Assembly: GCA_034440135.1 (NCBI GenBank)
Contig: JAWXBP010000189.1
Location: forward strand, 1 to 32,932
Direction of reading: 5' to 3'
Length of the DNA stretch: 32,932 nucleotides
Origin: Planctomycetia bacterium
GTDB taxonomy: Bacteria > Planctomycetota > Planctomycetia > Pirellulales > JALHLM01
Below are positions 9,651-31,334 of this stretch, piece after piece (positions within the stretch are counted from its first letter, which is position 1; each line of letters begins with the position of its first letter). The notes beneath the pieces are model-generated. The model did not search any database, was not told where the DNA came from, and was given only the letters and a program-made list of their open reading frames with translations. The translations under genes and the position numbers were made by a program.

Positions 9651-9774
9651 GATTCATGGGCCGCAAAGTAAATGCACCCCGCGCGCGAGGTGCAATGCGT
9701 ATCGGAACAAAGGCCGCCAAAAAAGCGCCCAGCCCCGCGTTTCGAATCCAGTTCCTCCGGTAACGCCCAGCCGC

Positions 9775-9805
9775 TTGCCCAGCCGGGGGGCAGGCATCAT
9801 ATTAT
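9775..9805 (+). promoter_or_regulatory. Possible promoter of clpV
   Basis: TTGCCC (9775-9780) and TATTAT (9800-9805) are separated by 19 bases, wider than ideal. The -10 box matches at five of six positions and stands out in GC-rich DNA. A start near 9812 would leave about 55 bases before the clpV ATG. Confidence 0.25.
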
Positions 9806-9866
9806 CCCTGCGCCGCGGTGTTCGCGGTTCTTCGGTTCCTTTGCGCTCGAGCGGATAACCCATCTC

Positions 9867-12551
9867 ATGGCCTCGCTGAATCTCAAGTCGCTGGTTGGAA
9901 AGCTCAACCAAACCTGCCGTCGGGCGCTCGAAAGCTCGGCGGGGCTGTGTCTTTCGCGGACCAATTACAACGTCGAAGTCGAGCACTGGTTCATGAAGTT
10001 GCTCGAACCGGCAGACACCGACCTCCCACGCATTCTCCGCCATTACGAAATCGACCCCGCCCGGCTCAACCGCGAGATGACCAAGGTCCTCGACGGCCTC
10101 AAAACCGGCAACGCCCGGGCGCCGGAGCTGTCGCCCGAGATCGTCGACCTGATGCGCGAAGCCTGGGTGCTGGCAAGCCTGAAATACGGCGCCGGCCAGA
10201 TCCGCTCCGGAGCCTTGCTGACGGCACTCCTGACCGACAAGACCCTGTCGAGCCGCGTACGGACGCTCGTGCCCGAACTGGCGAAGATTCCGGCCGCGCA
10301 ACTGGAAAACGACCTTCCCGCCCTGGTCGCCGGAAGCGCCGAAGAACAGCAAACCGCGGTTGCCGGTGGTTCTGGCGATGCGCCGGCTTCTCCCGGACAG
10401 CCTGGCGCGCCGATGCCTAGTTCGCAGACGCCGTCGCTGGATCAATTCACGACCGATCTCACCGCGCAGGCCCGCGCCGGCAAGATCGACCCGGTGCTGG
10501 GGCGCGATCCGGAAATCCGCCAGATCATCGACATCCTCACCCGCCGTCGCCAGAACAACCCGATCCTCACCGGCGAGGCCGGGGTCGGCAAAACGGCCGT
10601 CGTCGAAGGCTTCGCCCTCCGCATCGCGGCCGGCGACGTGCCAGATCCGCTGAAAGGCGTCGCGCTCAAGACGCTCGACCTCGGCCTGTTACAAGCCGGC
10701 GCCGGGGTAAAGGGTGAATTCGAAAACCGCTTGAAGAGCGTGATCGACGAGGTGAAGAAATCGCCGAAACCGATCATCTTGTTCATCGACGAGGCGCACA
10801 CAATGATCGGCGCTGGTGGCGCCGCCGGTCAGAACGACGCCGCCAACCTGCTCAAGCCAGCGCTCGCCCGCGGCGAGTTGCGCACGATCGCCGCCACGAC
10901 CTGGGCGGAATACAAGAAATACTTCGAAAAGGACCCGGCACTGGCGCGGCGCTTTCAAGTCGTCAAAGTCGAAGAACCGATCGAAGCTGCTGCGATCGAG
11001 ATGATGCGCGGCTTCGTCCACGCGCTCGAAAAACATTACAACGTGCGCGTGCTCGACGCGGCCGTGGTTGACGCGGTCAAGCTGTCCCACCGTTACATCT
11101 CCGGCCGCCAACTGCCGGATAAATCGGTGAGCCTGCTCGACACCGCGTGCAGCCGCGTGGCGATTCGCCAGAGCGCGACGCCGCCGCTGGTCGAGGACAA
11201 CATCCGCCGTATCGCCGCGCTGGCGACGACGATCGACATCCTCGAACGCGAAAATGAAACCGACGGCGGCCACGACGATCGGCTGACCGAACTGCGCGAC
11301 GAGAAGAAAACCTCTGAGGCGTCGCTGACCGCGCTCGAGGAACGCTGGACCAAAGAAAAGGAGTTGGTCGGCAAAATTCGCGAGATCCGCGCTCAGTTGG
11401 AAAAACGCCCCGCGAACGGCGAACCGGTCGATCCGAAAACCACCCTCACGCCCGAACAGCGAGTCAAGATGCGGGCGGAACTGGATGGGCTCACCGAAGA
11501 GTTGGAAAAACTCCAAGGCGAAGAACCGTTGATGCAAGTTTGCGTCGACAGCCAGGCCATTGCCGACGTCGTCTCCAGTTGGACCGGCGTCCCGGTCGGC
11601 CGAATGATGTCCGACGAGATTCAAACCGTGTTGAATCTCAAGCAAAAGCTGGAAGAGCGGATCGTCGGGCAATCCCACGCCTTGGAAGCGATTGCCGAAG
11701 CGATTCGCACCTCACGTGCCGGCATGACCGACCCGCGCCGCCCGATCGGCGTGTTCATGCTCGTCGGCCCGAGCGGCGTCGGAAAAACAGAAACGGCGAT
11801 CGCATTGTCCGACTTGCTCTATGGCGGCGAACAGAACATGACCGTCATCAACATGTCGGAGTTCAAGGAAGAGCACAAAGTCTCGCTGCTGATGGGTTCG
11901 CCTCCGGGCTACGTCGGTTACGGCGAAGGCGGCGTGCTCACCGAAGCGGTCCGACGTCGGCCATACAGCGTGCTGCTCCTGGACGAGCTGGAAAAATCGC
12001 ACCCCGGCGTGCAGGAAATCTTCTATCAGGTGTTCGACAAGGGCACGCTCCGCGACGGCGAAGGGCGCGACATCGACTTCAAGAACACGGTCATCTTGAT
12101 GACTTCAAATGCCGCCAGCGACACCGTGATGCGGCTCTGCGCCGATCCGGACACGTTCCCGGACGCCGCGGCGCTGAAGCTCGCGCTGCAGCCGGAGTTG
12201 CTCAAGGTCTTCAAGCCGGCATTCTTGGGGCGTCTCAACGTCGTCCCCTATTTCCCGCTGGGCGACGAAGTCTTGAAGAACATCATCAAGCTCAAGCTGG
12301 GCCTTGTCAGCCGGCGGGTGAAAGAGAACTACAAGGCCACCTTCGAATATGCGCCGGAAGTCGTGACGACGATCGCCTCGCGCTGCACCGAAGTGGAAAC
12401 CGGCGCCCGCAACATCGACCACATCATCAACCACACGCTCCTGCCGGAAATGTCATCCGAATTCCTCTCCCGCATGGCAGAAGGCAAGACCATCGCCAGC
12501 GTGAAAGTGAACGTCGATACGGACGGCAAGTTCGCGTATGAGATCGTGTAG
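9867..12551 (+). CDS. clpV: ClpV (TssH), type VI secretion AAA+ ATPase
   Basis: A Clp/HSP100 unfoldase that dismantles the contracted TssB/TssC sheath so it can be reused. The 894-residue protein begins with the ClpV-type N-domain (SLVGKLNQTCRRALESSAGL ... NYNVEVEHWF, about 7-42) rather than a ClpB or ClpA one. Two ATPase modules follow: Walker A GEAGVGKT (236-243) with FIDEAH, and GPSGVGKT (634-641) with LLLDELEKSHP. A coiled middle segment (about 455-550) is rich in Glu and Lys, and a Pro/Ser/Gln linker lies at 160-190. The frame is open upstream to 9672, but the ATG at 9867 gives the family N-terminus; its ribosome site is weak. hcp follows after a repeat-filled spacer. No sheath, baseplate or membrane component is in the window. 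Confidence 0.9.
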   Translation: MASLNLKSLVGKLNQTCRRALESSAGLCLSRTNYNVEVEHWFMKLLEPADTDLPRILRHYEIDPARLNREMTKVLDGLKTGNARAPELSPEIVDLMREAWVLASLKYGAGQIRSGALLTALLTDKTLSSRVRTLVPELAKIPAAQLENDLPALVAGSAEEQQTAVAGGSGDAPASPGQPGAPMPSSQTPSLDQFTTDLTAQARAGKIDPVLGRDPEIRQIIDILTRRRQNNPILTGEAGVGKTAVVEGFALRIAAGDVPDPLKGVALKTLDLGLLQAGAGVKGEFENRLKSVIDEVKKSPKPIILFIDEAHTMIGAGGAAGQNDAANLLKPALARGELRTIAATTWAEYKKYFEKDPALARRFQVVKVEEPIEAAAIEMMRGFVHALEKHYNVRVLDAAVVDAVKLSHRYISGRQLPDKSVSLLDTACSRVAIRQSATPPLVEDNIRRIAALATTIDILERENETDGGHDDRLTELRDEKKTSEASLTALEERWTKEKELVGKIREIRAQLEKRPANGEPVDPKTTLTPEQRVKMRAELDGLTEELEKLQGEEPLMQVCVDSQAIADVVSSWTGVPVGRMMSDEIQTVLNLKQKLEERIVGQSHALEAIAEAIRTSRAGMTDPRRPIGVFMLVGPSGVGKTETAIALSDLLYGGEQNMTVINMSEFKEEHKVSLLMGSPPGYVGYGEGGVLTEAVRRRPYSVLLLDELEKSHPGVQEIFYQVFDKGTLRDGEGRDIDFKNTVILMTSNAASDTVMRLCADPDTFPDAAALKLALQPELLKVFKPAFLGRLNVVPYFPLGDEVLKNIIKLKLGLVSRRVKENYKATFEYAPEVVTTIASRCTEVETGARNIDHIINHTLLPEMSSEFLSRMAEGKTIASVKVNVDTDGKFAYEIV

Positions 12552-12710
12552 AGGAAGTAGGTGAAGGTAGGTGGAGTAGTTAGTAGGTGAAGTAGTTCGC
12601 ATTCACGGCCTACTCCGCCTACTAACTACTTCACCTACTACCTACTTCATCTACTACCTACTTCACCTACTACCTACTTCACCTACTACCTACTTCACCT
12701 ACTACCTCTC
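12552..12710. repeat. GTGAAGTAG-family array with hairpin, clpV-hcp spacer
   Basis: The whole spacer between clpV and hcp is repeat. A left part in the GTAGGTGGAGTAG orientation (12571-12595) is mirrored by 12610-12634: 22 of 25 positions are complementary and two of the other three would be G-U pairs in RNA. From 12626 to 12705 the 16-base unit CTACTTCACCTACTAC runs in tandem five times (one unit has a single change), after a degenerate unit at 12610-12625. The array starts within a few bases of the clpV stop and ends ten bases before the hcp ATG, leaving only CTCTCCCTCC as leader, so hcp has no normal ribosome-binding site. Confidence 0.85.
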
Positions 12711-12715
12711 CCTCC

Positions 12716-19781: not shown

Positions 19782-22700
19782 ATGGCCACCGACGTTGCCA
19801 CGCCTCGCGAATACACGGAAATCCCCGCGCGCACGACATCGCCCACGCACGGCGATACATCCGCCCTGGAATTCGTGCGGATGCTGCTTGCGCCGCTTGC
19901 GTCGCTGCGGGTCACGATCGTGTTGTTTCTGTTGGCGATCTTTCTCGTTTTCGCCGGCACGTTGGCTCAGGTCAATCTCGATATCCTCGACGTATTGCAT
20001 AAGTACTTCCGCGCCTGGTCCGTTTGGATTCCTTGCCAGGTCTTTTTTCCGCGCTCGTTCTTTCCGACGTTGCAGGAAGTTCCCGGGATGTTCCTGTTTC
20101 CAGGCGGCGCGACGATTGGCGTGGCGATGATCATCAATCTACTCGCCGCCCACGCGGTGCGCTTCAAAGTTCAGGCGAAGGGAACGCGGTTGCTCGCCGG
20201 ACTGGCGGTGCTTGGCCTCGGAGTCGTGTCGTTGTTTGTCGCCATTGCCAGTGGCTTCAGCAGCGATGGCATCTTGGAAGCGTCGCTCATCCCGTGGCCG
20301 ATTCTCTGGCGCGTCTTCGTCAGCTCGCTCGTGCTGGTCTCGGTCACCATGGGCTACGCCTGGTTTCAGTTCGACGCCTCGCGCCGGTGGGAACGCATCC
20401 TCCTCGGCGTCGCGACGCTCGTACTCGGCGCGCTGACCGCTTGGCTCGTCTGGCGCGGCGATACCGCGCGGCTCAACGATTCCGGCATGCGGATCCTCTG
20501 GCAATTACTGAAAGGGCAAGCCGTCGCCACGGTGCTGTTCGCCGGCTGTTACTTGCTGTTCAAGAAGCGCGCCGGCATCGTGCTGCTGCATAGCGGCGTC
20601 GGCTTGATGATGATCTCCGAAGTCGTCGTCAGTTTCTGGGCAGTGGAAGGACAGGTCACCATGCGCGAGGGGGAAACCCTGCACTATGTGAGCGACATTC
20701 GCACCGTGGAGCTGGCCGTCGTCGATCGCACGAACCCTGACCGCGATACCGTGGTCTCGATTCCCAAATCGTTCCTCACCGAAAAGAACCGACGGATCGA
20801 AGACCCGCGGCTGCCGTTTGATATCCAGATCGTGGAGTTCATGGAGAACACCAATTTGGACCAGCCGACGGAAAAAGACACAAACCTCGCGACCGCCGGG
20901 CTTGGCAAGGACCTGGTCGCCCGCGCCGCGCGTCCGCTCTCTGGCACCGACACCGGCAAGGGCATCAACTACCCTTCGGCCTATGTGCGGTTGTTCGACA
21001 AGAAGTCCAAACAAGAACTCGGCACGCACCTGGTCAGCTTGTTCTTCAGCGTCAACAAGGCCTCGGAGAAGTCCGCGGTCGCTGATAAGTCTTACGACCT
21101 GGAACTGCGCCACCTGCGTACGTACAAGCCGTATTCGCTGAAATTGCTCGACGTCCGCAAAGACGACTACGTCGGCACCAGCACGCCGAAGAACTACTCC
21201 TCCGACGTGCATCTGGTCGACGGCTCGCGCGGCGTCGATCGGCCCAAGGTGCATATCAAGATGAACGAACCGCTCCGCTTCGCGGACGAGACGTTCTACC
21301 AAAGTAGCTACTACCTTGATCCGCGTGACGGCGCCGAGTACACCACGCTCAGCGTGGTCTCCAACTTCGGCTGGATGATCCCCTACATCAGTTGCATGAT
21401 CGTTTTCACGGGCATGTTCGCGCAGTTCATGTCGACACTCGGACGTTTTCTCGATCGCATGGATCGCGGCACGGCCGGTCCGGCTTTCCTCGAGTCGATG
21501 CACCAAGCCGTGCAGCGCACTGGAGAAGTAGCGAGGGTCCGGCGCGGGCGTCTGAATGCGGAGCAAGCCGAATCGTGGATCGGCAAACGTGAGCGTTGGT
21601 TTGCCACCGGCGCGGTGTTGTTGGCGGCGATGTTCGTCAGCTATTACGCGATGAAGCCGCTCAAGCCGCACGCCGGGATGGATCTGGACGCCTTCGGCAA
21701 GTTGCCGGTTGCGCACCAGGGGCGCGTCAAGCCGCTCGATACCGTGGCGCGCAACACGCTCCGCATTCTTTCCGGCAAACTGGAATTCAGCGACGTAAAC
21801 GGCAAGAAGCAGCCGGCCATTCGTTGGTTGGCCGATCTCTTGGCCCGTCCCGACGAGGCGATGGCGTACAAGGTCTTCCGCATCGACCACCTGGACTTGC
21901 TCGCCACGCTCGGACTGGAACGCCGCAAACAGCACTATTACGCGATTACAGAGTTCCAGGACAAGCTCCCGGTGCTCGAGGAGCAAGCCGAGGAAGCCCG
22001 CAAGACGCCGCCGGAAAAGTTGAGCGCTTACCAGCGCAAGGTGCTGGAACTGGAAAAGAAGCTCGGCGAAGTCATCACGTTACGGCAGGCGTTCTCGGCC
22101 ACGGTCATTCGTCCGGACCATGCACAAGAGGACGTGATGTCGGCCATGCAGCGCGCGGAGTTCCTGGAGCGCGGCACGCCGCCGCTGGCGATCCCGCCGA
22201 CGGACGACGCGACGGGCAAGTGGACCGCCTATTCAACCGCCACGTTCGACCTGTGGCGGCGCGAGATCATGCGCGCGCACGGAGGCGACGAAGCCGCGAA
22301 AGCCCCGCTGGCGAACGTCAAGATTCACCCCGCGGTGGAACAATGGAGCCAGATCTTCACCGCCTACGCGCAGGCCGACCCCAAGGCCTTCAACCGCGAC
22401 GTGGCCGCGTACCGGAACGAATTGGGCGCCGCACCGCCGCAAGAGTACGGCGCCACGCGGATTGGGGCCGAATCGGCGTTCAATCGCGCGGAGCCTTTCT
22501 TCTATACGGCGATCGTCTATTTTGTCTGCTTCCTGTTCTCCCTGATCGGCATGTTCGCCGCCTTGCCGCGCCTGCGTTCGTTGCACGTGTTTCAGACGAC
22601 GGCGACCTGGCTGTTTGCTTTCTCGCTGCTCGTCCACACCGTGGCGATCATCGCCCGCGTCTACATTTCGCAATACGCTCCGGTGACGAACCTCTATAGC

Positions 22701-23447
22701 TCGGCCGTCTTCATCGGCTGGGCGTGCGTCGCACTGGCCTTGGTGCTCGAATCGATCTTCCGGATCGGACTGGCAAATATGGTTGGCGCCGCGGCCGGCT
22801 TCCTCACGTTGCTCGTCGCCCATTACCTATCGCTCGACGGCGATACGATCGGCGTGATGCAAGCGGTGCTCGATACGCAGTTCTGGCTGTCCACGCATGT
22901 CGTCACCGTCTCACTCGGTTACGCCACGACGTTGCTGGCCGGCCTCTTGGGCATTGCCTACATCATCTACGGAGTGTGTACGCCCGGGCTCGATCGTGGG
23001 CTCAGCAAGACTCTGGCTGGCATGATCTACAGCGTGATCTGCTTCGCCATGTTCTTCAGCTTTATCGGCACCGTGCTGGGCGGACTGTGGGCCGATGATT
23101 CCTGGGGCCGCTTCTGGGGTTGGGACCCGAAGGAAAACGGCGCGCTGATGATCGTCCTCTGGAACGCGCTGGTGCTGCATGCCCGTTGGGGTCGAATGGT
23201 CGGCGATCGCGGGCTGGCGATCTTGGCCATCCTCGGCAACATCTGCACCTGCTGGTCCTGGTTCGGCGTGAACGAACTGGGCGTGGGCCTCCATTCGTAC
23301 GGCTTCACTGAAGGCGTACTGAAATGGCTCGGCATCGCCGCGGTCAGCCACCTGCTCATCGCCGGCATCGGGCTGATGCCGCAACATCTCTGGTTGAGCG
23401 GCCGCGCGCTCTTGAACGAGGAGCCTGCTCCGAACGCCACGGCGTAG
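19782..23447 (+). CDS. ccsBA: CcsBA-type cytochrome c synthase (ResB-CcsA fusion)
   Basis: System II haem exporter and cytochrome c haem lyase in one polypeptide of 1221 residues. The N-terminal part is ResB/CcsB: a membrane helix LRVTIVLFLLAIFLVFAGTL, further helices to about 290, then a large extracytoplasmic domain and a helix near 530 (WMIPYISCMIVFTGMFAQF). A soluble middle section (about 620-890) contains a second helix near 605 and the repeat-like text GRVKPLDTVARNTLRILSG. The C-terminal part is CcsA, with several helices and the haem-handling tryptophan-rich motif W-G-W-D-P-K-E (1112-1118). Separate CcsA and CcsB are usual; fusions are known in epsilonproteobacteria and Bacteroidetes and are shorter or similar. 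It would serve the dihaem protein encoded at 14969-16801. The ATG at 19782 gives a short polar N-terminus. Confidence 0.9.
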   Translation: MATDVATPREYTEIPARTTSPTHGDTSALEFVRMLLAPLASLRVTIVLFLLAIFLVFAGTLAQVNLDILDVLHKYFRAWSVWIPCQVFFPRSFFPTLQEVPGMFLFPGGATIGVAMIINLLAAHAVRFKVQAKGTRLLAGLAVLGLGVVSLFVAIASGFSSDGILEASLIPWPILWRVFVSSLVLVSVTMGYAWFQFDASRRWERILLGVATLVLGALTAWLVWRGDTARLNDSGMRILWQLLKGQAVATVLFAGCYLLFKKRAGIVLLHSGVGLMMISEVVVSFWAVEGQVTMREGETLHYVSDIRTVELAVVDRTNPDRDTVVSIPKSFLTEKNRRIEDPRLPFDIQIVEFMENTNLDQPTEKDTNLATAGLGKDLVARAARPLSGTDTGKGINYPSAYVRLFDKKSKQELGTHLVSLFFSVNKASEKSAVADKSYDLELRHLRTYKPYSLKLLDVRKDDYVGTSTPKNYSSDVHLVDGSRGVDRPKVHIKMNEPLRFADETFYQSSYYLDPRDGAEYTTLSVVSNFGWMIPYISCMIVFTGMFAQFMSTLGRFLDRMDRGTAGPAFLESMHQAVQRTGEVARVRRGRLNAEQAESWIGKRERWFATGAVLLAAMFVSYYAMKPLKPHAGMDLDAFGKLPVAHQGRVKPLDTVARNTLRILSGKLEFSDVNGKKQPAIRWLADLLARPDEAMAYKVFRIDHLDLLATLGLERRKQHYYAITEFQDKLPVLEEQAEEARKTPPEKLSAYQRKVLELEKKLGEVITLRQAFSATVIRPDHAQEDVMSAMQRAEFLERGTPPLAIPPTDDATGKWTAYSTATFDLWRREIMRAHGGDEAAKAPLANVKIHPAVEQWSQIFTAYAQADPKAFNRDVAAYRNELGAAPPQEYGATRIGAESAFNRAEPFFYTAIVYFVCFLFSLIGMFAALPRLRSLHVFQTTATWLFAFSLLVHTVAIIARVYISQYAPVTNLYSSAVFIGWACVALALVLESIFRIGLANMVGAAAGFLTLLVAHYLSLDGDTIGVMQAVLDTQFWLSTHVVTVSLGYATTLLAGLLGIAYIIYGVCTPGLDRGLSKTLAGMIYSVICFAMFFSFIGTVLGGLWADDSWGRFWGWDPKENGALMIVLWNALVLHARWGRMVGDRGLAILAILGNICTCWSWFGVNELGVGLHSYGFTEGVLKWLGIAAVSHLLIAGIGLMPQHLWLSGRALLNEEPAPNATA

Positions 23448-23459
23448 GCGCCCGGCGTT

Positions 23460-23652
23460 GGTCAGGCACCCTGGCCGAAGGCCAAGAACTCGGCGCAACT
23501 ATAAGACGTAGCCACATCCCAAACCCATGCCGGCAAATTGCCTGACGGGAAACGGCGTCGATTCTGTCAGGCAATTAGCCTGCATCGATTCCCGACTTCA
23601 GCGGCGAAAGTCGATTGGGCAGCGTCGTCGACTTTCAACAGGGTGCCTGACC
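23460..23652. repeat. 193-bp nested inverted-repeat element between convergent genes
   Basis: GGTCAGGCACCCTG (23460-23473) is exactly inverted at 23639-23652. Inside lies a second pair, AATTGCCTGAC (23536-23546) and GTCAGGCAATT (23566-23576), and a third, GAAAGTCGA / TCGACTTTC at about 23606-23636. All share or resemble the GTCAGGC core. The right end overlaps the stop codon of the ABC ATPase gene, whose TAG is part of the repeat edge CCTACGG read leftward. It sits between convergent genes, so it could also end both transcripts. Confidence 0.7.
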
Positions 23653-24590
23653 TACGGAATCGGCGCCATCATGCCGACGCCTGCTCCGGCGGCGCATTGT
23701 TGCCAGAAGCGCGTGTGGCTCTCGCGACCGAAGCGTTCCGATGGTTCGAAAATTACGCGCCGCATTTCTTCGCGTTGCCGCACGAACGCCGCGGCTTCGG
23801 CTTCGACGTCCTTGCTGAACACCGGCGACACGGCGTCGTAGATGATCGTCGCGCCCGGATGCGACGGGCCACCAGTGTCTTCCCAGCGCCAATGTTGGGA
23901 TAAGCCCAGCACGCGATCGGCGACGTAAATCGCTTCGTTCAACTCGTGCGTGATAATCAGAATCGTGTAAGGCGGCTTCTTGCCGGCCGCCTTCGCGGCG
24001 AGATTTTCCGCGTAGAGCTTGAGCAGCATTTCCTGCATTTCTTCGCGCGTCGCTTCGTCGAGCGCGCCGAACGGCTCATCCAGCAGCAGAATCTCCGGCT
24101 TCATCATCAATGCCTGGGCAATCGCCACGCGCTGGCACATCCCGCCGGAGAGCTCCTCCGGATAGCGATGCAACGCCTTGCCCATCTGTACGCGCGTCAG
24201 CATATCATCCGCGCCGGCCAAGTGCTGCTTTCGCAATTTGAGCCAGTTCGGAAACTGGAAAAACCGGTAGGCCAGGTTCGTCTCGTCTAGCATCGGGCCG
24301 AAGGCCACGTTCTGCCGTGCGGTGAGAAATGGATAGAGCCCGTAGCGTTGATAGACGATACCGCGATCGCGTCCCGGCCCAGTGATCGGCTTGCCGTTCA
24401 TCAGCACTTCACCTGAGTCGGGCGGATGCGTGCCGAGGATCGCGCGGAGGAGCGTTGACTTCCCGCAACCGCTAGGCCCGACGAGCGACACAATCTGCCC
24501 CCGCGCGATCTTCAAATTCACGTCATGCAACACGGCATGATCGCCAAATCGCTTACTGACGCCGCGGCATTCGAGGACGATGTCGTGCAT
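23652..24590 (-). CDS. ABC importer ATPase (NitT/TauT or urea-carboxylase-region type)
   Basis: The 312-residue ATP-binding subunit powers the importer formed with the permease and lipoprotein. Motifs: Walker A GPSGCGKST (38-46), signature LSGGMCQR (147-154), Walker B ILLLDEP (167-173), and a switch His in IITHEL. A charged insert near 104-125 (LAYRFFQFPNWLKLRKQ) between Q-loop and signature, and a C-terminal tail of about 70 residues (EEMRRVIFEPSERFG), are longer than usual for this class. The ATG at 24590 gives the standard start MHDIVLECRGVSKRF; the frame stays open upstream through a repeat and part of the permease gene. It is last in the three-gene unit. Its stop codon is supplied by the inverted-repeat element. 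Confidence 0.9.
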   Translation of the reverse strand: MHDIVLECRGVSKRFGDHAVLHDVNLKIARGQIVSLVGPSGCGKSTLLRAILGTHPPDSGEVLMNGKPITGPGRDRGIVYQRYGLYPFLTARQNVAFGPMLDETNLAYRFFQFPNWLKLRKQHLAGADDMLTRVQMGKALHRYPEELSGGMCQRVAIAQALMMKPEILLLDEPFGALDEATREEMQEMLLKLYAENLAAKAAGKKPPYTILIITHELNEAIYVADRVLGLSQHWRWEDTGGPSHPGATIIYDAVSPVFSKDVEAEAAAFVRQREEMRRVIFEPSERFGRESHTRFWQQCAAGAGVGMMAPIP

Positions 24591-24594
24591 GCGG

Positions 24595-24626
24595 GGAAGT
24601 GATGAGTGCGGAGTGATGAGTGATGA
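24595..24626. repeat. GATGAGTG-family repeat at the ATPase start
   Basis: GGAAGTGATGAGTGCGGAGT (24595-24614) followed by GATGAGTGATGA is identical to the first arm of the 184-bp element at 28565-28748. Only one arm is present here. It fills most of the 56 bases between permease stop and ATPase start and ends four bases upstream of that ATG, where a ribosome site would be expected; read leftward the repeat gives CACTTCC, with no purine-rich site. Confidence 0.75.
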
Positions 24627-24646
24627 GAACGGAACTTGATTCCCGT

Positions 24647-25450
24647 TTACTTCCCGAACCAGGGGCACAGCAGCCTTCGCAGCCAGGTCAGCGAGTAGTC
24701 CATCAGAAAACCAACGGCCGCCAACACGGCTAGGTAGATGTAGACGGTGCTCATGTCGCTCAAGCGTTGTTGCATGCGCAGTCGGAAACCGAAGCCGATG
24801 TCGCCAATCGCGTATTCCGCCGCGATCAGATACACCATCGCCGGGCCGACTTGCAGCCTCACGGCCTCGATGATCCGCGGCAGAATCTGTTTGAACGTGA
24901 CGTTCCAGATCAATTCCGGATGACTCGCCCCGAGCGTGTAGGCCTTGTAGATCAATTCCTCCGGCACGTCGGTGCGGGCGGATTGATAGATCGACTGGGC
25001 CAGCGTGGGAATCACGCCGAAGGCGATCATCGCGATGTACAACTCCATGCCGGTGCCGACAAGCACGAAGAACACGGCCAGCATCGCCGTCGGCGGAATC
25101 TTCGCCAAACAAGAAAGCGGCGGCAGCAACAGCGCCTCGATCGGCGTGAAACAGCCCATCCCCAGCCCCAGCACCACGGCGACCAGCACGCCGATCGCCA
25201 GGCCGGAGAAATGACGCGTGAACGTCGCCTTGGCGTCGGTCCACAGCCACGACGCGCCGTCATAGCGATCTTGCGGTTTCAATACCCGCGTGACGCCGTC
25301 GGCGAGTTGCGACCAATTCGGGATTGTCTTGTCGCTGGGATTCCGCTGATGCTGGCGATACGACAGCGCCGTATATCCGGTCAGCAACACCACGACCGAA
25401 ACCACGCCCAGGGCAATGTGCGCACGAAACGAAATCGGCTGCCGAATCAT
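24647..25450 (-). CDS. ABC importer permease
   Basis: The 267-residue inner-membrane permease of the same importer. Six hydrophobic segments are visible, starting with AHIALGVVSVVVLLTGYTAL and ending with VYIYLAVLAAVGFLMDY. The EAA-type ATPase-docking loop reads EELIYKAYTLGASHPELIWN, with G at the expected site. It belongs to the BPD inner-membrane component family (NitT/TauT type), with a longer first periplasmic loop (RNPSDKTIPNWSQLADGVTRV). It starts four bases after the lipoprotein stop, so they are translationally linked. The substrate is judged from the lipoprotein. Confidence 0.9.
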   Translation of the reverse strand: MIRQPISFRAHIALGVVSVVVLLTGYTALSYRQHQRNPSDKTIPNWSQLADGVTRVLKPQDRYDGASWLWTDAKATFTRHFSGLAIGVLVAVVLGLGMGCFTPIEALLLPPLSCLAKIPPTAMLAVFFVLVGTGMELYIAMIAFGVIPTLAQSIYQSARTDVPEELIYKAYTLGASHPELIWNVTFKQILPRIIEAVRLQVGPAMVYLIAAEYAIGDIGFGFRLRMQQRLSDMSTVYIYLAVLAAVGFLMDYSLTWLRRLLCPWFGK

Positions 25451-25453
25451 GCG

Positions 25454-26578
25454 TTATTCCGTGCCGCCAGCCGCGGTCGAGGCTTTCACCGCCTTGATGT
25501 ACGAGTCGTCAAAGCGAACGTTGACTTGCTCGCCGTCTTTGGCCGCCCCAAAGCCGAGCTTCGGCGATCCGTCGAACATCTGGTGCTTCTCGCAGAAGCT
25601 CATCACCGTTTCCATCGTCTTCGGTAACTCGCCGCCGCCGAGTACGTGCGAACCTTCGTCCGCCGTCTTGTAAAACTTCGTTTGCTGCACCACGAGGGTC
25701 ATGTCTTCAAGCTTCAAGTCCGAAAAATCCTCGCCGATCTGCACCAAGGCTTCATTCCGCGTCGCCGGCGCCTCGATGATTTTGTTCATCTCGTAGTAGC
25801 AATCGATCACCGCGTGGCAGAAAGCGTCCGCACCGGGCTTCTTGAGTGAATCCTGCCCGACCACGACCATGTCGATGATCTCGCCGGGGATCTTTGTGGA
25901 GTCGAACAGCACTTTGGTGTTCTCGCGGGTCCGCAGCGTTTGCAGCACGTACGGATTCCAAACCATGATCGCCTGGTATTCTTCCTGCCCTTGCTGCATG
26001 GCCAGCGCCGCCGCGCCGGGATCGCTACTGGCGAATTCATAGTCCGCCTCGTTCTTGCCCAGTTCTTCCAGGCAACGCACGAAACAATACTCCGACACGC
26101 TCTTCGGCAACCCGAAGACCTTGTGGCCGCGAAGTTGATCGACGTCCTCGATGCCTTCGACGATGCAGGCGTCGGCGCCGTCACTGGTGCTGGTCGGCAG
26201 GATCGCTACGCCCGGCCGTGAGACCGACGGCGAAAGAATGTCGATGTTGGTGATGCAGACGGCGTCGCAAGAGGCCGAGGCGTACATCTGCAAGCACGGA
26301 TCGTAGTCGGCCTGCTTCAATTCGATATCGACTTTCCACTTCTCCTCGATCGGCCCGAGTTTGCCCTTGGCGCCGTCGATCAGCTTGCGGCGGTGCGCCA
26401 CGCCGAACACGCTCCACGAGGGGTACTCGCTCCAGGCCAGCGAAAACGACGGCATGTCGGCCGGCGCGTCGGAAGCGGAACTGGTCGCCGGCGTCGCCGT
26501 CGTCGCTCCGCCGCCGCAGCCCGCCGCGGCGAGCGCCATCAAGCACGTCAACATCCACGCAGGGTGTGAGTGGGTCAT
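25454..26578 (-). CDS. ABC importer substrate-binding lipoprotein
   Basis: A 374-residue periplasmic binding lipoprotein. From the ATG at 26578 the signal ends in AAAGC, with lipidated C21 followed by a Gly/Thr/Ser linker. The mature domain has SFSLAWSEYPSWSVFGVAH at the N-terminus, DAVCITNIDILSPSVSRPG, DQLRGHKVFGLPKSVSEYCF, AIMVWNPYVLQTL and KIPGEIIDMVVV. The last four stretches resemble the binding protein encoded beside urea carboxylase genes (TIGR03427-like, from memory), now thought to act on guanidine or urea derivatives. No carboxylase gene and no guanidine riboswitch are seen nearby. A nitrate or sulfonate substrate remains possible. The alternative start 26593 lacks a ribosome site. 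Confidence 0.85.
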   Translation of the reverse strand: MTHSHPAWMLTCLMALAAAGCGGGATTATPATSSASDAPADMPSFSLAWSEYPSWSVFGVAHRRKLIDGAKGKLGPIEEKWKVDIELKQADYDPCLQMYASASCDAVCITNIDILSPSVSRPGVAILPTSTSDGADACIVEGIEDVDQLRGHKVFGLPKSVSEYCFVRCLEELGKNEADYEFASSDPGAAALAMQQGQEEYQAIMVWNPYVLQTLRTRENTKVLFDSTKIPGEIIDMVVVGQDSLKKPGADAFCHAVIDCYYEMNKIIEAPATRNEALVQIGEDFSDLKLEDMTLVVQQTKFYKTADEGSHVLGGGELPKTMETVMSFCEKHQMFDGSPKLGFGAAKDGEQVNVRFDDSYIKAVKASTAAGGTE

Positions 26579-26610
26579 ATTCGGGCACTCCATTCAAGAG
26601 GCGATGTGTT

Positions 26611-26686
26611 GTAGGTCAGGCTTTCCAGCCTGACGTATTCGCGCCAATGGTTCGTTGCAACCGTCAGGCTGGAAAGCCTGACCTAC
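26611..26686. repeat. GTAGGTCAGGC palindrome (REP-like)
   Basis: A 76-base element: a 24-base arm beginning GTAGGTCAGGCTTTCC (26611-26634) is repeated as an exact inverted copy at 26663-26686. Each arm is itself a small hairpin (GTCAGGCT-TTCC-AGCCTGAC). I recall this palindrome as very common in planctomycete genomes, but that is memory. Its right end supplies the TAG stop codon of the PspA-like gene, and its core GTAGGTCAGGC is shared with the 23460-23652 element. Confidence 0.85.
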
Positions 26687-27504
26687 GCTTCCGGCAGCCG
26701 CGTTTCCACGCGTTGCGATTCGGTTTGTTCCGCCGACGGCTTGTCCGCTTCGGCGGCGAGGCCGATCAGCTTATCGAATTCGTCGCTCGACGCGCTCTTG
26801 TTAGCGTAGTCGAGGAACTCCGCTTCCTGCCGCTTCGTGTCGGTGCCGGCCAGCTCGCGCGAAACGCGGGCCTTGGCCTTCGACTCCTGGCGCAGGTCGC
26901 GCATATCCTGCAGTTCTTTCGACGAGCGGTCCTCGCTGATGCCGGCCAGGATGTTGGAGATTTCCTCCTCTTCCTTGGCGGTGATTACGTCGGCCACGGT
27001 CGCGGCGGCTTCTTCCTTGAGCTTCTCCAGATCGCGCAGCAATTGCTGCATCTGGACCTTGTGATTGCCCAGGTTGTCCTGGAGCTGCTTGATGTCGTTT
27101 TCCAGTTCCGCAATGCGGTCGTATTTCTCTTTGAGCGTCGTGGAGAAATCATTGAAGGCGCCCAGGCACTTCAAGTACTCCTCGTTCTTCTTGATCTCCT
27201 CCATGGAGACCCCTTGGCCCTTGAGCTTGTCGACCACGCTCTTGGCCTTGCCGGCGGCCCCTTCCTTGAGCTGCTCCAGACGCTTGGTTTCCTCCGTCAG
27301 CGTGCGCACGGTCGCCAGCTTCTTTTCTTCCTGGGCGATCATCTGCGCGACGGCAGTCTTGTATTGATTGATGCGCGACGTCTTTTCCTGCACGATCCGG
27401 TCGTAGGTCGCCTGAATCACGTAGGGATTCGACGACAGTTCCTTGCGCGCCGAGTCGATGCGGCCGGTAATCAAATACCCGAAGGCCCGCAGATATCTGC
27501 CCAT
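26683..27504 (-). CDS. PspA/IM30-family membrane-remodelling protein
   Basis: A 273-residue, almost wholly helical protein. From the ATG at 27504 it starts MGRYLRAFGYLITGRIDSAR, with an amphipathic helix that binds membrane and the alpha-1 pattern of PspA/IM30, then long coiled coils (60-215, many Glu/Lys/Gln, e.g. EKYDRIAELENDIKQLQDNL). It is longer than E. coli PspA (222) and has a charged C-terminal tail. PspA proteins bind stressed inner membrane, form ESCRT-III-like rods or rings and, in some bacteria, support secretion. Here it follows pilus/secretion genes. A TTG start at 27531 would add nine residues without a ribosome site. Its stop codon lies in the adjacent palindrome. Confidence 0.8.
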   Translation of the reverse strand: MGRYLRAFGYLITGRIDSARKELSSNPYVIQATYDRIVQEKTSRINQYKTAVAQMIAQEEKKLATVRTLTEETKRLEQLKEGAAGKAKSVVDKLKGQGVSMEEIKKNEEYLKCLGAFNDFSTTLKEKYDRIAELENDIKQLQDNLGNHKVQMQQLLRDLEKLKEEAAATVADVITAKEEEEISNILAGISEDRSSKELQDMRDLRQESKAKARVSRELAGTDTKRQEAEFLDYANKSASSDEFDKLIGLAAEADKPSAEQTESQRVETRLPEA

Positions 27505-27804
27505 GGCTCCAAACACGCGATGATCTCCCAAATGTGCCGGGCGTGAGGAAGTTGCCCGAAAGTATACCCTGTCCTACGGGGGAGAGAACCAGCTACCGTC
27601 AGCGATTCCAACACAAACCGATCACGCGCCGGCAACACCAGCCCGTAGCGCCAGCGAGGGAGAGCGGACGTTTTTTCAACCGAAAGAGGAAACTCTCGGC
27701 AGCGCCGCCCACTCCATCGGCGACAGGAGTCGTCTCCCACAGGGAGCAAGGTGCGCCAGCGCCGAAAACAGGGCGCAAGTCCGGCGGAATTCCGGCCGTA
27801 GCGG
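27505..27804. other. Spacer before the PspA-like gene, with repeat fragments
   Basis: No gene seen in about 300 bases. It holds AGCCCGTAGCGCCAGCGAGG (about 27638-27657), a string I recall as a recurrent intergenic repeat in planctomycetes, and CTACGGGGGAGAGAACC near 27571 resembling another such repeat. A leftward TATACT near 27558 could be the -10 of a promoter for the PspA-like gene. Open frames here are Arg/Pro-rich and unconvincing. Confidence 0.4.
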
Positions 27805-28563
27805 TTATTCCACGTCGCGCGGCGCCGCGGCCTGCGGGTGGCCGAGTTCGGCCTCGAGAGTTTGCATCCGTTCCTCGACCTTCCGCGCCACGTCGAGGCT
27901 CGCGGTCAGTTCCTGTCGGAGACGCGCCAAGTCGTGGGCCGGCGCCTGGGCCAGGGCGAGCGCTTTGACGTTATCGAGCGTGCCGGCCAATTGGCGGATG
28001 CTTTGGTTGATTTCCTCCAGCAACCGCTCCCGGGCTTCAAACAAACTGCGCTGCCCGTCGGCGGTCCGCATCCCATGCGCGGTATCGCGCAGTTCCAGCG
28101 AGCGCTCGAAGGACAGGATGCAGGCGCGGAACAGGTTTTCCACCTGGGAGTTGATCTCCAACACGGAGCGCCCTTCCAGGCGCTTCGTCCAAGCGGTGTC
28201 TTTTCGAAAGGCGTCATAGAGGTCGCGCAGATATTTGAGACTCTGCTCGTCGCGCGGATCGTGATCGACGGAGAGCCGCTCGGAGAGTTGATCGAGCTGC
28301 CGTTCCTGTTGGTCGATTGCCTCGCGCTGAATCGCGGCGAAGGCGTCCTCGGCGATGGCGTCGTGCTGGAACAACCATCGCGTGGCCAACGTACCGACGC
28401 TGGTCAACAATCCGGCCACGCCGACAAAGGCCAGCCAGCCGGCGCCTTGATCCAGGCCCCAGGAGATCGTCAGCAAACTCAACCCGCCGGCCCCGGGAAT
28501 CAACGTCCAGGGACTGGCAATCAAGTCCACCAGCACCTTGCGACGAAACCGGGCGGGATCCAT
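27805..28563 (-). CDS. Membrane protein with coiled-coil C-terminal domain
   Basis: A 252-residue protein starting at the ATG at 28563 (MDPARFRRKVLVDLIASPWT). Two hydrophobic segments lie close together at about 18-37 (LIPGAGGLSLLTISWGL) and 40-62 (AGWLAFVGVAGLLTSVGTL), forming a hairpin in the membrane. The rest is helical and charged: a region rich in Glu, Gln and Arg (75-250) with a short conserved-looking patch NSQVENLFRACILSFERSLEL. I do not recognise a family. Being directly upstream of the PspA-like gene in the same direction (300-base spacer), it may be a membrane partner for it. Frame continues upstream through a repeat, but that text is only translated repeat. Confidence 0.65.
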   Translation of the reverse strand: MDPARFRRKVLVDLIASPWTLIPGAGGLSLLTISWGLDQGAGWLAFVGVAGLLTSVGTLATRWLFQHDAIAEDAFAAIQREAIDQQERQLDQLSERLSVDHDPRDEQSLKYLRDLYDAFRKDTAWTKRLEGRSVLEINSQVENLFRACILSFERSLELRDTAHGMRTADGQRSLFEARERLLEEINQSIRQLAGTLDNVKALALAQAPAHDLARLRQELTASLDVARKVEERMQTLEAELGHPQAAAPRDVE

Positions 28564-28564
28564 G

Positions 28565-28748
28565 GTAGGAAGTGATGAGTGCGGAGTGATGAGTGATGAT
28601 TTAGGGAGCGGAGTTGATGAGAATGTAAGCAGATACGAAGTGCGTGGCAATGCGATGTTCTGGGTTAAAAAGCGTCTCACCCACTCACATGATTGCCTGC
28701 TTCGCCTCCCTACTCATCATTCATCACTCCGCACTCATCACTTCCTAC
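28565..28748. repeat. 184-bp GATGAGTG element with 35-bp terminal inverted repeats
   Basis: The arm starting GTAGGAAGTGATGAGTGCGG (28565-28584, running to 28599) is matched in inverted form at 28714-28748 with one mismatch in 35 bases. The element begins two bases from the ATG of the coiled-coil membrane protein (28563) and its far end supplies the TAG stop of the PilO-like gene (28747-28745). Its interior (28600-28713) is lower in GC and has no gene. A single arm of the same repeat stands before the ABC ATPase gene at 24595. Confidence 0.8.
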
Positions 28749-29725
28749 CGCGCAGCTGTTTCCGTCCCCAACGGCTTCCCCTCGGTCAGCTTGTCGCCGA
28801 GGCCGTAGAGTTTCTTTTCGTCGTTGATTTGCAGTTCCACGGTGCGCGTGGTGAGATGGATGCGGTGGACTTTGCCGCGGCGTTCCTCGCCCAGGTCGAA
28901 CTCCTCACCCTCGGCGAGCTTGAACAGCTTGCCGGTGGTTTCCATGTGAATCCACACGACCAGCTCCGGATCGGTGAGGATTGCCGTCACCTTGGCGAAG
29001 CGGGCCGGGTCGACCGCGGGGTCCGGCTTCGACGACTTCTCTGGCGGCTTCGGCGGCGCGGGTTTGTAGGCCGCGAACGTGTTTCGCTTGGTGATCACGT
29101 CGCGGTATTCTTCGAACGTGCCGGCCAACGACTCGCCCGGCACGCTACTGAGGGCGTCCTTGCGATCGGCGTCCGGTAGCACCAAAGCGTCGATCGTAAT
29201 CTTCACTTCGAGTTTGCCGCTCTCTTGCGGCGTCATCGTCAGCGAACGCACCAAATGCAGGTGCCCGGCCGAATAGAAGGTGTGCAAGAACTTGGTCAGT
29301 TCTTCCAGGGTCGCTTTGCCGCGCACGGAATACGGCAGGCGGTGATAGACGATCGGCCGCGGTCCTTTCGCCGTGCGCATGTTGGCCGACATCAAGAATT
29401 TCGGCGTCGCCTGCGTGGGCGGCTCGACGTTCGGCGCTTCAAAACCCGCTTCGCCGACGATCTTGCGCAGCCAGGCGCTATAAGCGGCGCGGGCCAATTC
29501 CGGATCGGACGGCAGCGCCCGCGATTCGTACTTCGCCAGCTTGGTCGCGGCCAGCTTGCCGCGCTTAATTTGATTGTCCTTTTTCGTGACATCGCCGCTC
29601 AGCCGTGTGATTTCATTGGTGCGCGCGTTGATCGAGCTGCGAACCTTGCCATACAGCCAATTGCCGGCCAGCACCGCCACGAGCGCGACCACCACCCCCA
29701 TTAGTTGCTTCTCTCGCTTTTGCAT
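28745..29725 (-). CDS. PilO-like (GspM-like) pilus/secretion inner-membrane protein
   Basis: A 326-residue bitopic protein. From the ATG at 29725 it has a short basic cytoplasmic end (MQKREKQ), one membrane helix (LMGVVVALVAVLAGNWLYG), a coiled stretch (NARTNEITRLSGDVTKKDNQ) and a periplasmic ferredoxin-like domain containing LPYSVRGKATLEELTKFLHT and LVRSLTMTP. This plan matches PilO/GspM, which couples the PilM/PilN (GspL) platform to the pilus or secretin. The C-terminal 130 residues (after PEKSSKPDPAVDPARF) are extra compared with ordinary PilO and end with a small beta domain resembling PilP/GspC. Its ATG overlaps the upstream PilMN stop as TAATG. Identity is inferred from layout and order, not from strict motifs. 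Confidence 0.7.
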   Translation of the reverse strand: MQKREKQLMGVVVALVAVLAGNWLYGKVRSSINARTNEITRLSGDVTKKDNQIKRGKLAATKLAKYESRALPSDPELARAAYSAWLRKIVGEAGFEAPNVEPPTQATPKFLMSANMRTAKGPRPIVYHRLPYSVRGKATLEELTKFLHTFYSAGHLHLVRSLTMTPQESGKLEVKITIDALVLPDADRKDALSSVPGESLAGTFEEYRDVITKRNTFAAYKPAPPKPPEKSSKPDPAVDPARFAKVTAILTDPELVVWIHMETTGKLFKLAEGEEFDLGEERRGKVHRIHLTTRTVELQINDEKKLYGLGDKLTEGKPLGTETAAR

Positions 29726-31167
29726 TAGGGGGCCTCCACGGCCGGCAGAATGATTTCGGTGCCAAAGTCCCATTCATACGGCTTGGTCTCCGTATCGCGC
29801 GACGTGCCCAGGCTCTGCACCTGATGCCCAGCGTCGCGCAGGCCGTTCTCGACCTTCTGTACCGTGTCGAGCGATTTGACCAGGCCGTCGAACTCGATCT
29901 TCCCGCCGCCTCCCTGCTGCGACGCGAAGCGCACTTCCGTGAGCATCACGTCCTCCGGCGGCGGGAGCTTGACGGCCAGACTTTTCATTTCTTCCAGCCA
30001 GGGCACGTCGCCGGCGCGCCAGGCGTCGATTGACGTCACGCGGTCGACGACCTGCGTGTACTGATCGACCAACTTTTGCTTGGCGGCGTTTTGTCGATTC
30101 CAATCCGCGATCTGCTTGTCCAAGCTCGCTACGTACCACGAGTACCAGCCAATGCCCATCGCGATGAGCAGCGTCGCGGCCGTGGCATAGACCAGCATCC
30201 GCGGACGTTGAGACGCTTTCTCCGGCCGTCGTTTGGGTTTCAGGAAATCGATGGCGTGCGGCGTCTCACTCGCGCCGTCGAGCAACATGCCCAGAACTGG
30301 CGCGAAGCGCCCGCGGTGCGGCGTCTTGGCCATCGACAATCGCTCGGCGTTTGCCGCGCCGGCAAACGGATCGAAGACCTCGGTCGGCAGACTCAGCGAT
30401 TCCGACAGGTGACGCGCGAGCTCGGCGTGTTCGTCCCCGCCGGCGTACAGCCAGACCCGCTCCACGCGACGACCGCCCAGCTGATTCTGCACCGCGCCCA
30501 GCGTACGTCGCACTTCCGCCACGAGCGGCTTGGCGAAATCGGCCGTGGCTAGAGCATCGCTGGGCAGCCGCGCGGTCCGGGTAAACACCACGCGATCCGC
30601 GATCGTCACTGTCAGGTCCAACTCGTCGGCCAGCAAATCGACGAGCAGCTGTGGTTCGCTACTGGTTTGTTGCTTCGATCGCGCCAGCAGACTCGCCGCG
30701 GCGCAGGGTCGCAGAATCAGGTGTTCTGGTTTCAGTCCGGCCGTGGCGCAAATCTCTTCGATGTGCTTCACAACGTCCGGCGGAATCGTCGCGGCCAATA
30801 CCGTGCGTTGCTGATCGGCCTCGCCAGCGATGGCGACAAAGTCGAGCGGCCAGCCCTCGCCCCAGGAAGCGAATTCCCGTGGCGCCTGGAATCGCACCAT
30901 CTCCGGCAGTTCTTCATCCGGCGCAGGGGGCAGATTGAACAGCTTGAGTTCAATGCTGGTCCGCCCGACCCCCACCAACGCCTTGCCGCCGCGAACGCGC
31001 CGCGCCGCCAAACCCGCCGCCAGTTGCCGGCCAATTTCCTTGGGACCCGTCGTGGGCGCAAACGGAATCGCGAACACATCCTCAATCGAGGCCTGCCCGC
31101 GCTTCTCGGTGGCCACGGCCACTCGAGCCTCACGATTGTCCCATTCGATAGCGATTAGGCGAGACAT
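29725..31167 (-). CDS. PilM-PilN fusion (GspL-like) platform protein
   Basis: A 480-residue protein joining two usual genes. Residues 1-300 have the actin-like ATPase fold of PilM: start MSRLIAIEWDNREARVAV, ALVGVGRTSIELKLFNLP and, later, VERVWLYAGGDEHAELARHL. A linker with a Pro/Arg-rich stretch (FLKPKRRPEKASQRPR) leads to a membrane helix (MLVYATAATLLIAMGIGWYS, about 328-347), followed by a PilN-like coiled coil (ADWNRQNAAKQKLVDQYTQV) and a periplasmic ferredoxin-like domain (LTEVRFASQQGGGGKIEFDG). GspL of type II secretion has the same fused order, so this may be a GspL homologue. It starts four bases before the repeat at 31171. Confidence 0.75.
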   Translation of the reverse strand: MSRLIAIEWDNREARVAVATEKRGQASIEDVFAIPFAPTTGPKEIGRQLAAGLAARRVRGGKALVGVGRTSIELKLFNLPPAPDEELPEMVRFQAPREFASWGEGWPLDFVAIAGEADQQRTVLAATIPPDVVKHIEEICATAGLKPEHLILRPCAAASLLARSKQQTSSEPQLLVDLLADELDLTVTIADRVVFTRTARLPSDALATADFAKPLVAEVRRTLGAVQNQLGGRRVERVWLYAGGDEHAELARHLSESLSLPTEVFDPFAGAANAERLSMAKTPHRGRFAPVLGMLLDGASETPHAIDFLKPKRRPEKASQRPRMLVYATAATLLIAMGIGWYSWYVASLDKQIADWNRQNAAKQKLVDQYTQVVDRVTSIDAWRAGDVPWLEEMKSLAVKLPPPEDVMLTEVRFASQQGGGGKIEFDGLVKSLDTVQKVENGLRDAGHQVQSLGTSRDTETKPYEWDFGTEIILPAVEAP

Positions 31168-31170
31168 ATG

Positions 31171-31327
31171 GAAGTAGGGGAGTAGGTGGAGTAGTAAGTA
31201 GGTGAAGTAGGTGAAGTAGGTGGCGGAGGAAGTAGGTGAAGTAGCTAGTAGGGGAAGTAGTTAGTAGGTGAAGTAGTGCCGAGCCTCGGTCTACTTGCTA
31301 CTTCACCTACTAACTACTTCCCCTACT
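31171..31327. repeat. GTGAAGTAG-family array with perfect 30-bp hairpin
   Basis: Between GspK and the PilMN fusion the DNA consists of AAGTAGGTG / AAGTAGGGG units. The copy at 31247-31276 is perfectly inverted at 31298-31327 (30 of 30), with a 21-base loop, so a transcript of either strand folds into a long hairpin. Units also occur from 31171 to 31246 without an opposite arm. The array begins four bases from the PilMN ATG and ends eight bases before the GspK stop codon. Confidence 0.85.
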
Positions 31328-31334
31328 CTCCCGC

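Follow-up and report, generated by a model that had tools for sequence, protein, structure and literature searches.

GTAG-tagged repetitive extragenic palindromes (REPs) of one family, recognized by the end sequence GTAGGTCAGGC, are likely to supply the TAG stop codon of a number of genes in a genome of the Pirellulales (Planctomycetota): the repeats would have inserted behind genes under purifying selection, with the TAG of the element standing in for an existing stop. This reading is carried by the pile-up of stop codons at the TAG of the element, the lack of reading frames entering it in another phase, the element-like flanks of the copies involved and the gene ends, which are unaltered in the two cases that can be tested best. 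The starting point is a stretch of 32,932 nt (the window), which is contig C189 of the 7.3 Mb host genome assembly G000. We compared it with the remainder of this assembly and with G001, a sister genome from the same genus (JALHLM01) that conserves the gene neighbourhood of the window in locus L031 with 81–94% DNA identity (L numbers designate fetched loci). The repeat and stop statistics are based on the fetched loci of G000, and the element comparisons with G001 on a sample of its contigs.

Two genes of the window end inside an element of this family:

23652..24590, minus strand: gene for an ABC transporter ATP-binding protein (NitT/TauT/nitrate type), 312 amino acids
23652..23654, minus strand: TAG stop of the ABC ATPase gene, within the GTAG of the element (from the sequence)
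23457..23655, minus strand: long-form REP dimer, 199 nt, GTAGGTCAGGCACC ... GGTGCCTGACCAAC; its outer GTAG contains the ABC ATPase stop; DNA fold z -7.8
26683..27531, minus strand: gene for a PspA-like coiled-coil protein, 282 amino acids; no curated family reaches its cut-off
26683..26685, minus strand: TAG stop of the PspA-like gene, within GTAG (from the sequence)
26611..26686, minus strand: short-form REP dimer, 76 nt, composed of GTAG, the hairpin GTCAGGC-TTTCCA-GCCTGAC, a spacer, the inverted copy and CTAC; its outer GTAG contains the PspA-like stop

The initial annotation had placed the stops of these two genes and of a PilO-like gene at the same positions of repeats, and its coordinates are right: the open reading frames 23652–24590, 26683–27531 and 28745–29773, all on the minus strand, stop with TAG, each within a GTAG. 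The shared position holds for the ABC ATPase and PspA-like genes, as both end within the outer GTAG of a GTAGGTCAGGC element; the PilO-like gene adjoins another repeat, described below. The orthologue of the ABC ATPase in G001 is 97% identical and likewise terminates in GTAGGTCA.

The repeats as head-to-head REP dimers

Exact GTAGGTCAGGC ends number 83 in G000, against seven for a reversed control pattern, and 152 in G001. In both genomes they mostly form inverted pairs with a spacing of about 60–100 or about 185–200 nt, giving 39 paired units in G000 (70–100 or 194–238 nt) and 22 in the G001 sample, so that the recurring unit consists of two inverted REPs at short distance, as in REPINs. As expected for the GTAG REP superfamily, a short palindrome has GTAG at its base (GTAG followed by GTCAGGC TTTCCA GCCTGAC), and the copies are numerous, dispersed and mainly intergenic. 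The short-form dimer at 26611–26686 has a predicted RNA fold of -56.5 kcal/mol (z -11.6); the long form at 23457–23655 shares the outer stem of the short form and has large inner loops. GTAG or CTAC is present on both outer ends of the dimers, and the motif is therefore part of the element. By their sequence, then, the GTAGGTCAGGC repeats are head-to-head, GTAG-tagged REP dimers of a REPIN-like type.

Coincidence of gene stops with the TAG of the element

About 44 of the 83 GTAGGTCAGGC ends in G000 have the 3′ end of a gene at 150 nt or less, with coding frames into each end evaluated by a codon score trained on long open reading frames of this genome. In ten genes the stop codon is exactly the TAG of the GTAG (distance zero), while 17 stops are spread over the 13 positions lying 3–15 nt upstream of the GTAG, or about 1.3 per nucleotide; the Poisson probability for ten at a single position is 1.2e-6. 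These counts include both ends of one element and some sites that are common by descent. No credible read-through into the element in the other two frames occurred among the 83 ends (3^-10 = 1.7e-5). In G001, the same TAG position was used by 4 of 17 stops, and read-through in other frames was likewise not seen at these 17 gene ends. A read-through candidate (+19) at 26610 was discarded as a spurious gene call, situated on the strand opposite to the start of a substrate-binding-protein gene.

Since 170 of 968 stops (17.6%) in G001 are preceded by G as GTAG, a single overlap between a stop and a repeat has little meaning. With such a background, elements lying in short intergenic gaps could meet GTAG stops by coincidence, and this accounts for the PilO-like gene and for the plus-strand gene 19782–23447, which also ends in GTAG outside the element. 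Counted genome-wide against chance, as the initial annotation had proposed, the overlaps of the GTAGGTCAGGC family are nevertheless enriched, and the pile-up at a single position, with P about 1e-6, refutes coincidence for this family as far as the gene calls can be relied on, leaving it a very improbable explanation.

Age of the gene ends

An element whose TAG serves as the stop of ten genes could also have truncated or extended them by making a new stop, as the initial annotation had proposed, and insertions within the last codons would in principle accumulate at distance zero. However, the orthologue of the PspA-like gene in genome G015 (53% identity) lacks the repeat, stops at the same codon (PEA-TAA) and is followed by unrelated DNA, which is the finding that the initial annotation had named as a refutation; most verrucomicrobial orthologues are one residue shorter (...LPE stop). 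Similarly, the REP-terminated phosphomannomutase-like gene (L010) has the same end codon in 23 of 29 orthologues, which use all three stop codons and have unrelated flanks. Since both ends match those of repeat-free orthologues, the element did not create the gene end. The remaining comparisons are less uniform: the ABC ATPase orthologue of G015 ends within one residue with an unrelated tail, those of Verrucomicrobiota have different ends, the ends of PhyH orthologues spread from -4 to +11 around the REP-terminated end, and the C-terminus of PdxA varies in all relatives. In the testable cases the gene ends are thus, on the evidence of the orthologues, old and not created by the element, and it is improbable that insertion shortened or lengthened the genes, although this may have happened in others, should their orthologues reach well beyond the element. 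What survives of the earlier proposal is insertion at 3′ ends with a stop given by the element, consistent with insertion-type repeats, ten TAGs at gene ends and element-like flanks; the idea that the ends were set or altered by insertion is not supported, and it is contradicted for the PspA-like and phosphomannomutase-like genes.

Origin of the TAG and proposed mechanism

The GTAG is preceded by a pyrimidine and C (YC) in 7 of the 10 copies at distance zero and in 19 of 34 copies behind a stop; among ordinary GTAG stops the figure is 37 of 188 (Fisher P 0.0012 for the difference). Because the flanks of the distance-zero copies are element-like, the TAG probably arrived with the element, and the stop of these genes would probably be element-borne. 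An endonuclease-III-like gene illustrates the replacement: G000 reads GAT TAA and then GTAGG, and in G001 GA is joined to GTAGG, so that the TAG of the element takes the codon position of the G000 TAA and acts as the stop.

Y1 transposase genes are encoded in G000, and two of the products exceed the cut-off of 80 of NF047646 (REP-associated tyrosine transposase, RAYT; NCBIfam) with 91 and 87 bits. Some 70–160 nt downstream of the RAYT gene on contig C285 (L091 2446–3033, NF047646, 91 bits) lies the right half of a long-form element. This is not a REPtron, in which the rayt gene stands between two inverted cognate REPs: the C285 gene has a half element, downstream only, and GTCAGGC was not found near the other rayt loci of G000. 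In the REPs studied, TnpA_REP recognizes GTAG as part of the REP, GTAG acts like the guide of IS608, and cleavage occurs at CT or CA (PMC8266576). These roles of GTAG, together with the element-like flanks, are the reason to favour an element-borne GTAG plus purifying selection.

From these data we infer that the elements may be mobile, the REP dimers probably being mobilized by a RAYT, with each inserted copy bringing GTAG at its outer ends. Copies would be tolerated only outside of coding sequences and would therefore accumulate just behind genes. A copy at the edge of a gene would be kept only if its frame turns GTAG into a TAG stop that coincides with the original one or lies no more than a few codons from it; the TAG of the element would then replace the old stop with hardly any change in the protein end, and insertions in other frames would be purged by selection.

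Several observations weigh against this account. A single transposase copy has an element nearby, on just one of its sides; the calling of gene ends relied on a home-made codon score with an ad hoc threshold; and only two empty sites were obtained in the flank comparison between G000 and G001, which yielded mostly shared sites. The clean one is at the phosphomannomutase gene of G001, whose stop codon already forms part of a GTAG and is followed at once by the 3′ flank; the second, which is not clean, lacks GTAG. The GTAG at the clean site may reflect chance (18% background), precise excision or targeting. If GTAG were the target, elements would insert behind an existing GTAG and would never supply the stop; the element-free phosphomannomutase gene and the frequency of GTAG stops in the lineage (17.6%) agree with this. 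However, the distance-zero flanks resemble those of elements (YC) and not those of ordinary GTAG stops, the GTAG/CTAC on both outer ends and the recognition of GTAG by TnpA_REP as a part and guide of studied REPs assign the motif to the element, and GTAG is missing from the other empty site; we consider targeting unlikely. Slightly more doubtful still is the idea that the elements home to GTAG, with G-preceded TAG stops as safe landing sites, which would make them stop-codon-seeking miniature transposons that leave genes unharmed. Insertion of an element-borne GTAG, filtered by selection, thus remains the reading we favour.

Variation of the elements between the two genomes

Several orthologous sites have the same outer ends and flanks in the two genomes but different interiors: G000 carries a short form of about 76 nt and G001 a long form of about 197 nt. 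This is seen at window positions 26611–26686 versus L031 4846–5043, and at L116/L134, L092/L055 and L099/L069, and looks as if elements had been exchanged in place. Behind the ABC gene in G001 (contig C57, L184 973–1220), a complete long-form element is nested within the remnant GTAGGTCATTTTCC ... GGAAGGCCTGACCTAT. This element (L184 987–1185) corresponds to that at 23457–23655 of the window; its left flank matches the window and its right flank matches contig C252 of G000, where the site (L090 3052–3237) likewise carries an element. Either a rearrangement or a misassembly, broken within the repeat, would explain the mismatch of flanks.

Other repeats of the window

Further repeats and stops of the window belong to two other types:

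28745..28747, minus strand: TAG stop of the PilO/GspM-like gene (open reading frame 28745–29773, minus strand); TAA at the same codon in G001
28700..28749, minus strand: repeat arm adjoining the PilO/GspM-like stop; it belongs to another family (GGAAGTGATGAGTGCGGAGTGATGA...), whose copies are generally not GTAG REPs
28564..28613, plus strand: inverted arm of the same repeat as 28700–28749, directly adjoining the start codon of the following gene (from the sequence)
24595..24633, plus strand: single arm of this same GATGAGTG-type repeat, without GTAG, before the ABC ATPase start codon (from the sequence)
12548..12714, plus strand: 16-nt GTAGGTGAAGTAG-type block; its first GTAG (12548–12551) contains the stop of the TssH/ClpV-like gene 9672–12551 (plus strand)
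31177..31331, minus strand: further 16-nt GTAGGTGAAGTAG block, directly past the TGA of the GspK-like gene

The repeat next to the PilO/GspM-like gene belongs to the AAGTGATGAGTGCGGAGTGATGA family, with 38 matches in G000 at one mismatch or less. Only five copies have the form GTAGGnArTGATGA, and in almost all of the others AAGT is not preceded by GTAG. Nor is GTAG part of the GATGAGTG-type repeat at 28564–28749, given that most copies lack it before AAGTGATGAG. For this reason, the PilO-like TAG is placed one base upstream of the repeat and is not a shared element end, and this case is separate from those of the ABC ATPase and PspA-like genes. The GATGAGTGCGGAGTGATGA repeats (28564–28749 and 24595–24633), with 12 near-exact matches in G001 and 38 in G000, fill the space from the stop codon of one gene to the start codon of the following one, and the TGA stops of some genes (L123, L333) may come from them.

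The GTAGGTGAAGTAG blocks are tandem or inverted and lie at 2605–2680, 12548–12714 and 31177–31331; their core has 72 exact matches in G000 and 42 in G001. The TssH/ClpV-like gene is a GTAG-stop case overlooked in the initial annotation, and its repeat is of a third type.

Relation to known systems and significance

According to the text of Di Nocera et al. (2013; PMC3733652), the termini of GTAG-REPs often supply TAG stops, and GTAG-tagged REPs and their head-to-head dimers, known from Planctomycetes too, show the same habit as the repeats described here, which are therefore a new instance of a known phenomenon. What is new is this repeat family and its host: a family with the stem GTCAGGC/GCCTGAC and loops of TTTCCA or about 50 nt, in an uncultured organism, is not met in the text of that paper, its family-consensus figure excluded. 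The repeats resemble REPINs (Bertels and Rainey, 2011; PMC3116915) in that the presumed mobile unit is a pair of inverted REPs separated by a short spacer and the genome has a RAYT, but differ in their modest copy number (tens) and in that many copies are of the long form of about 200 nt. They also resemble RAYT/REPtron systems (PMC2817692, PMC8266576) in their RAYT homologues above the NCBIfam cut-off, one of them beside a half element, whereas none of the RAYT genes here lies between two inverted REPs of the GTAGGTCAGGC family.

Effects on termination or mRNA stability are reported for Escherichia coli REPs lying no more than 15 nt from stops (cited in the text of PMC12306157), and by analogy a hairpin beginning at the stop codon could have such effects here. 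The orthologues show that REP-derived stops can replace existing ones and leave the protein unchanged, for which evidence is not met in the text of PMC3733652. Accordingly, an overlap between a repeat and a stop codon should not be taken as gene truncation, and a genome annotation may rightly place a stop at the TAG of a GTAG REP.
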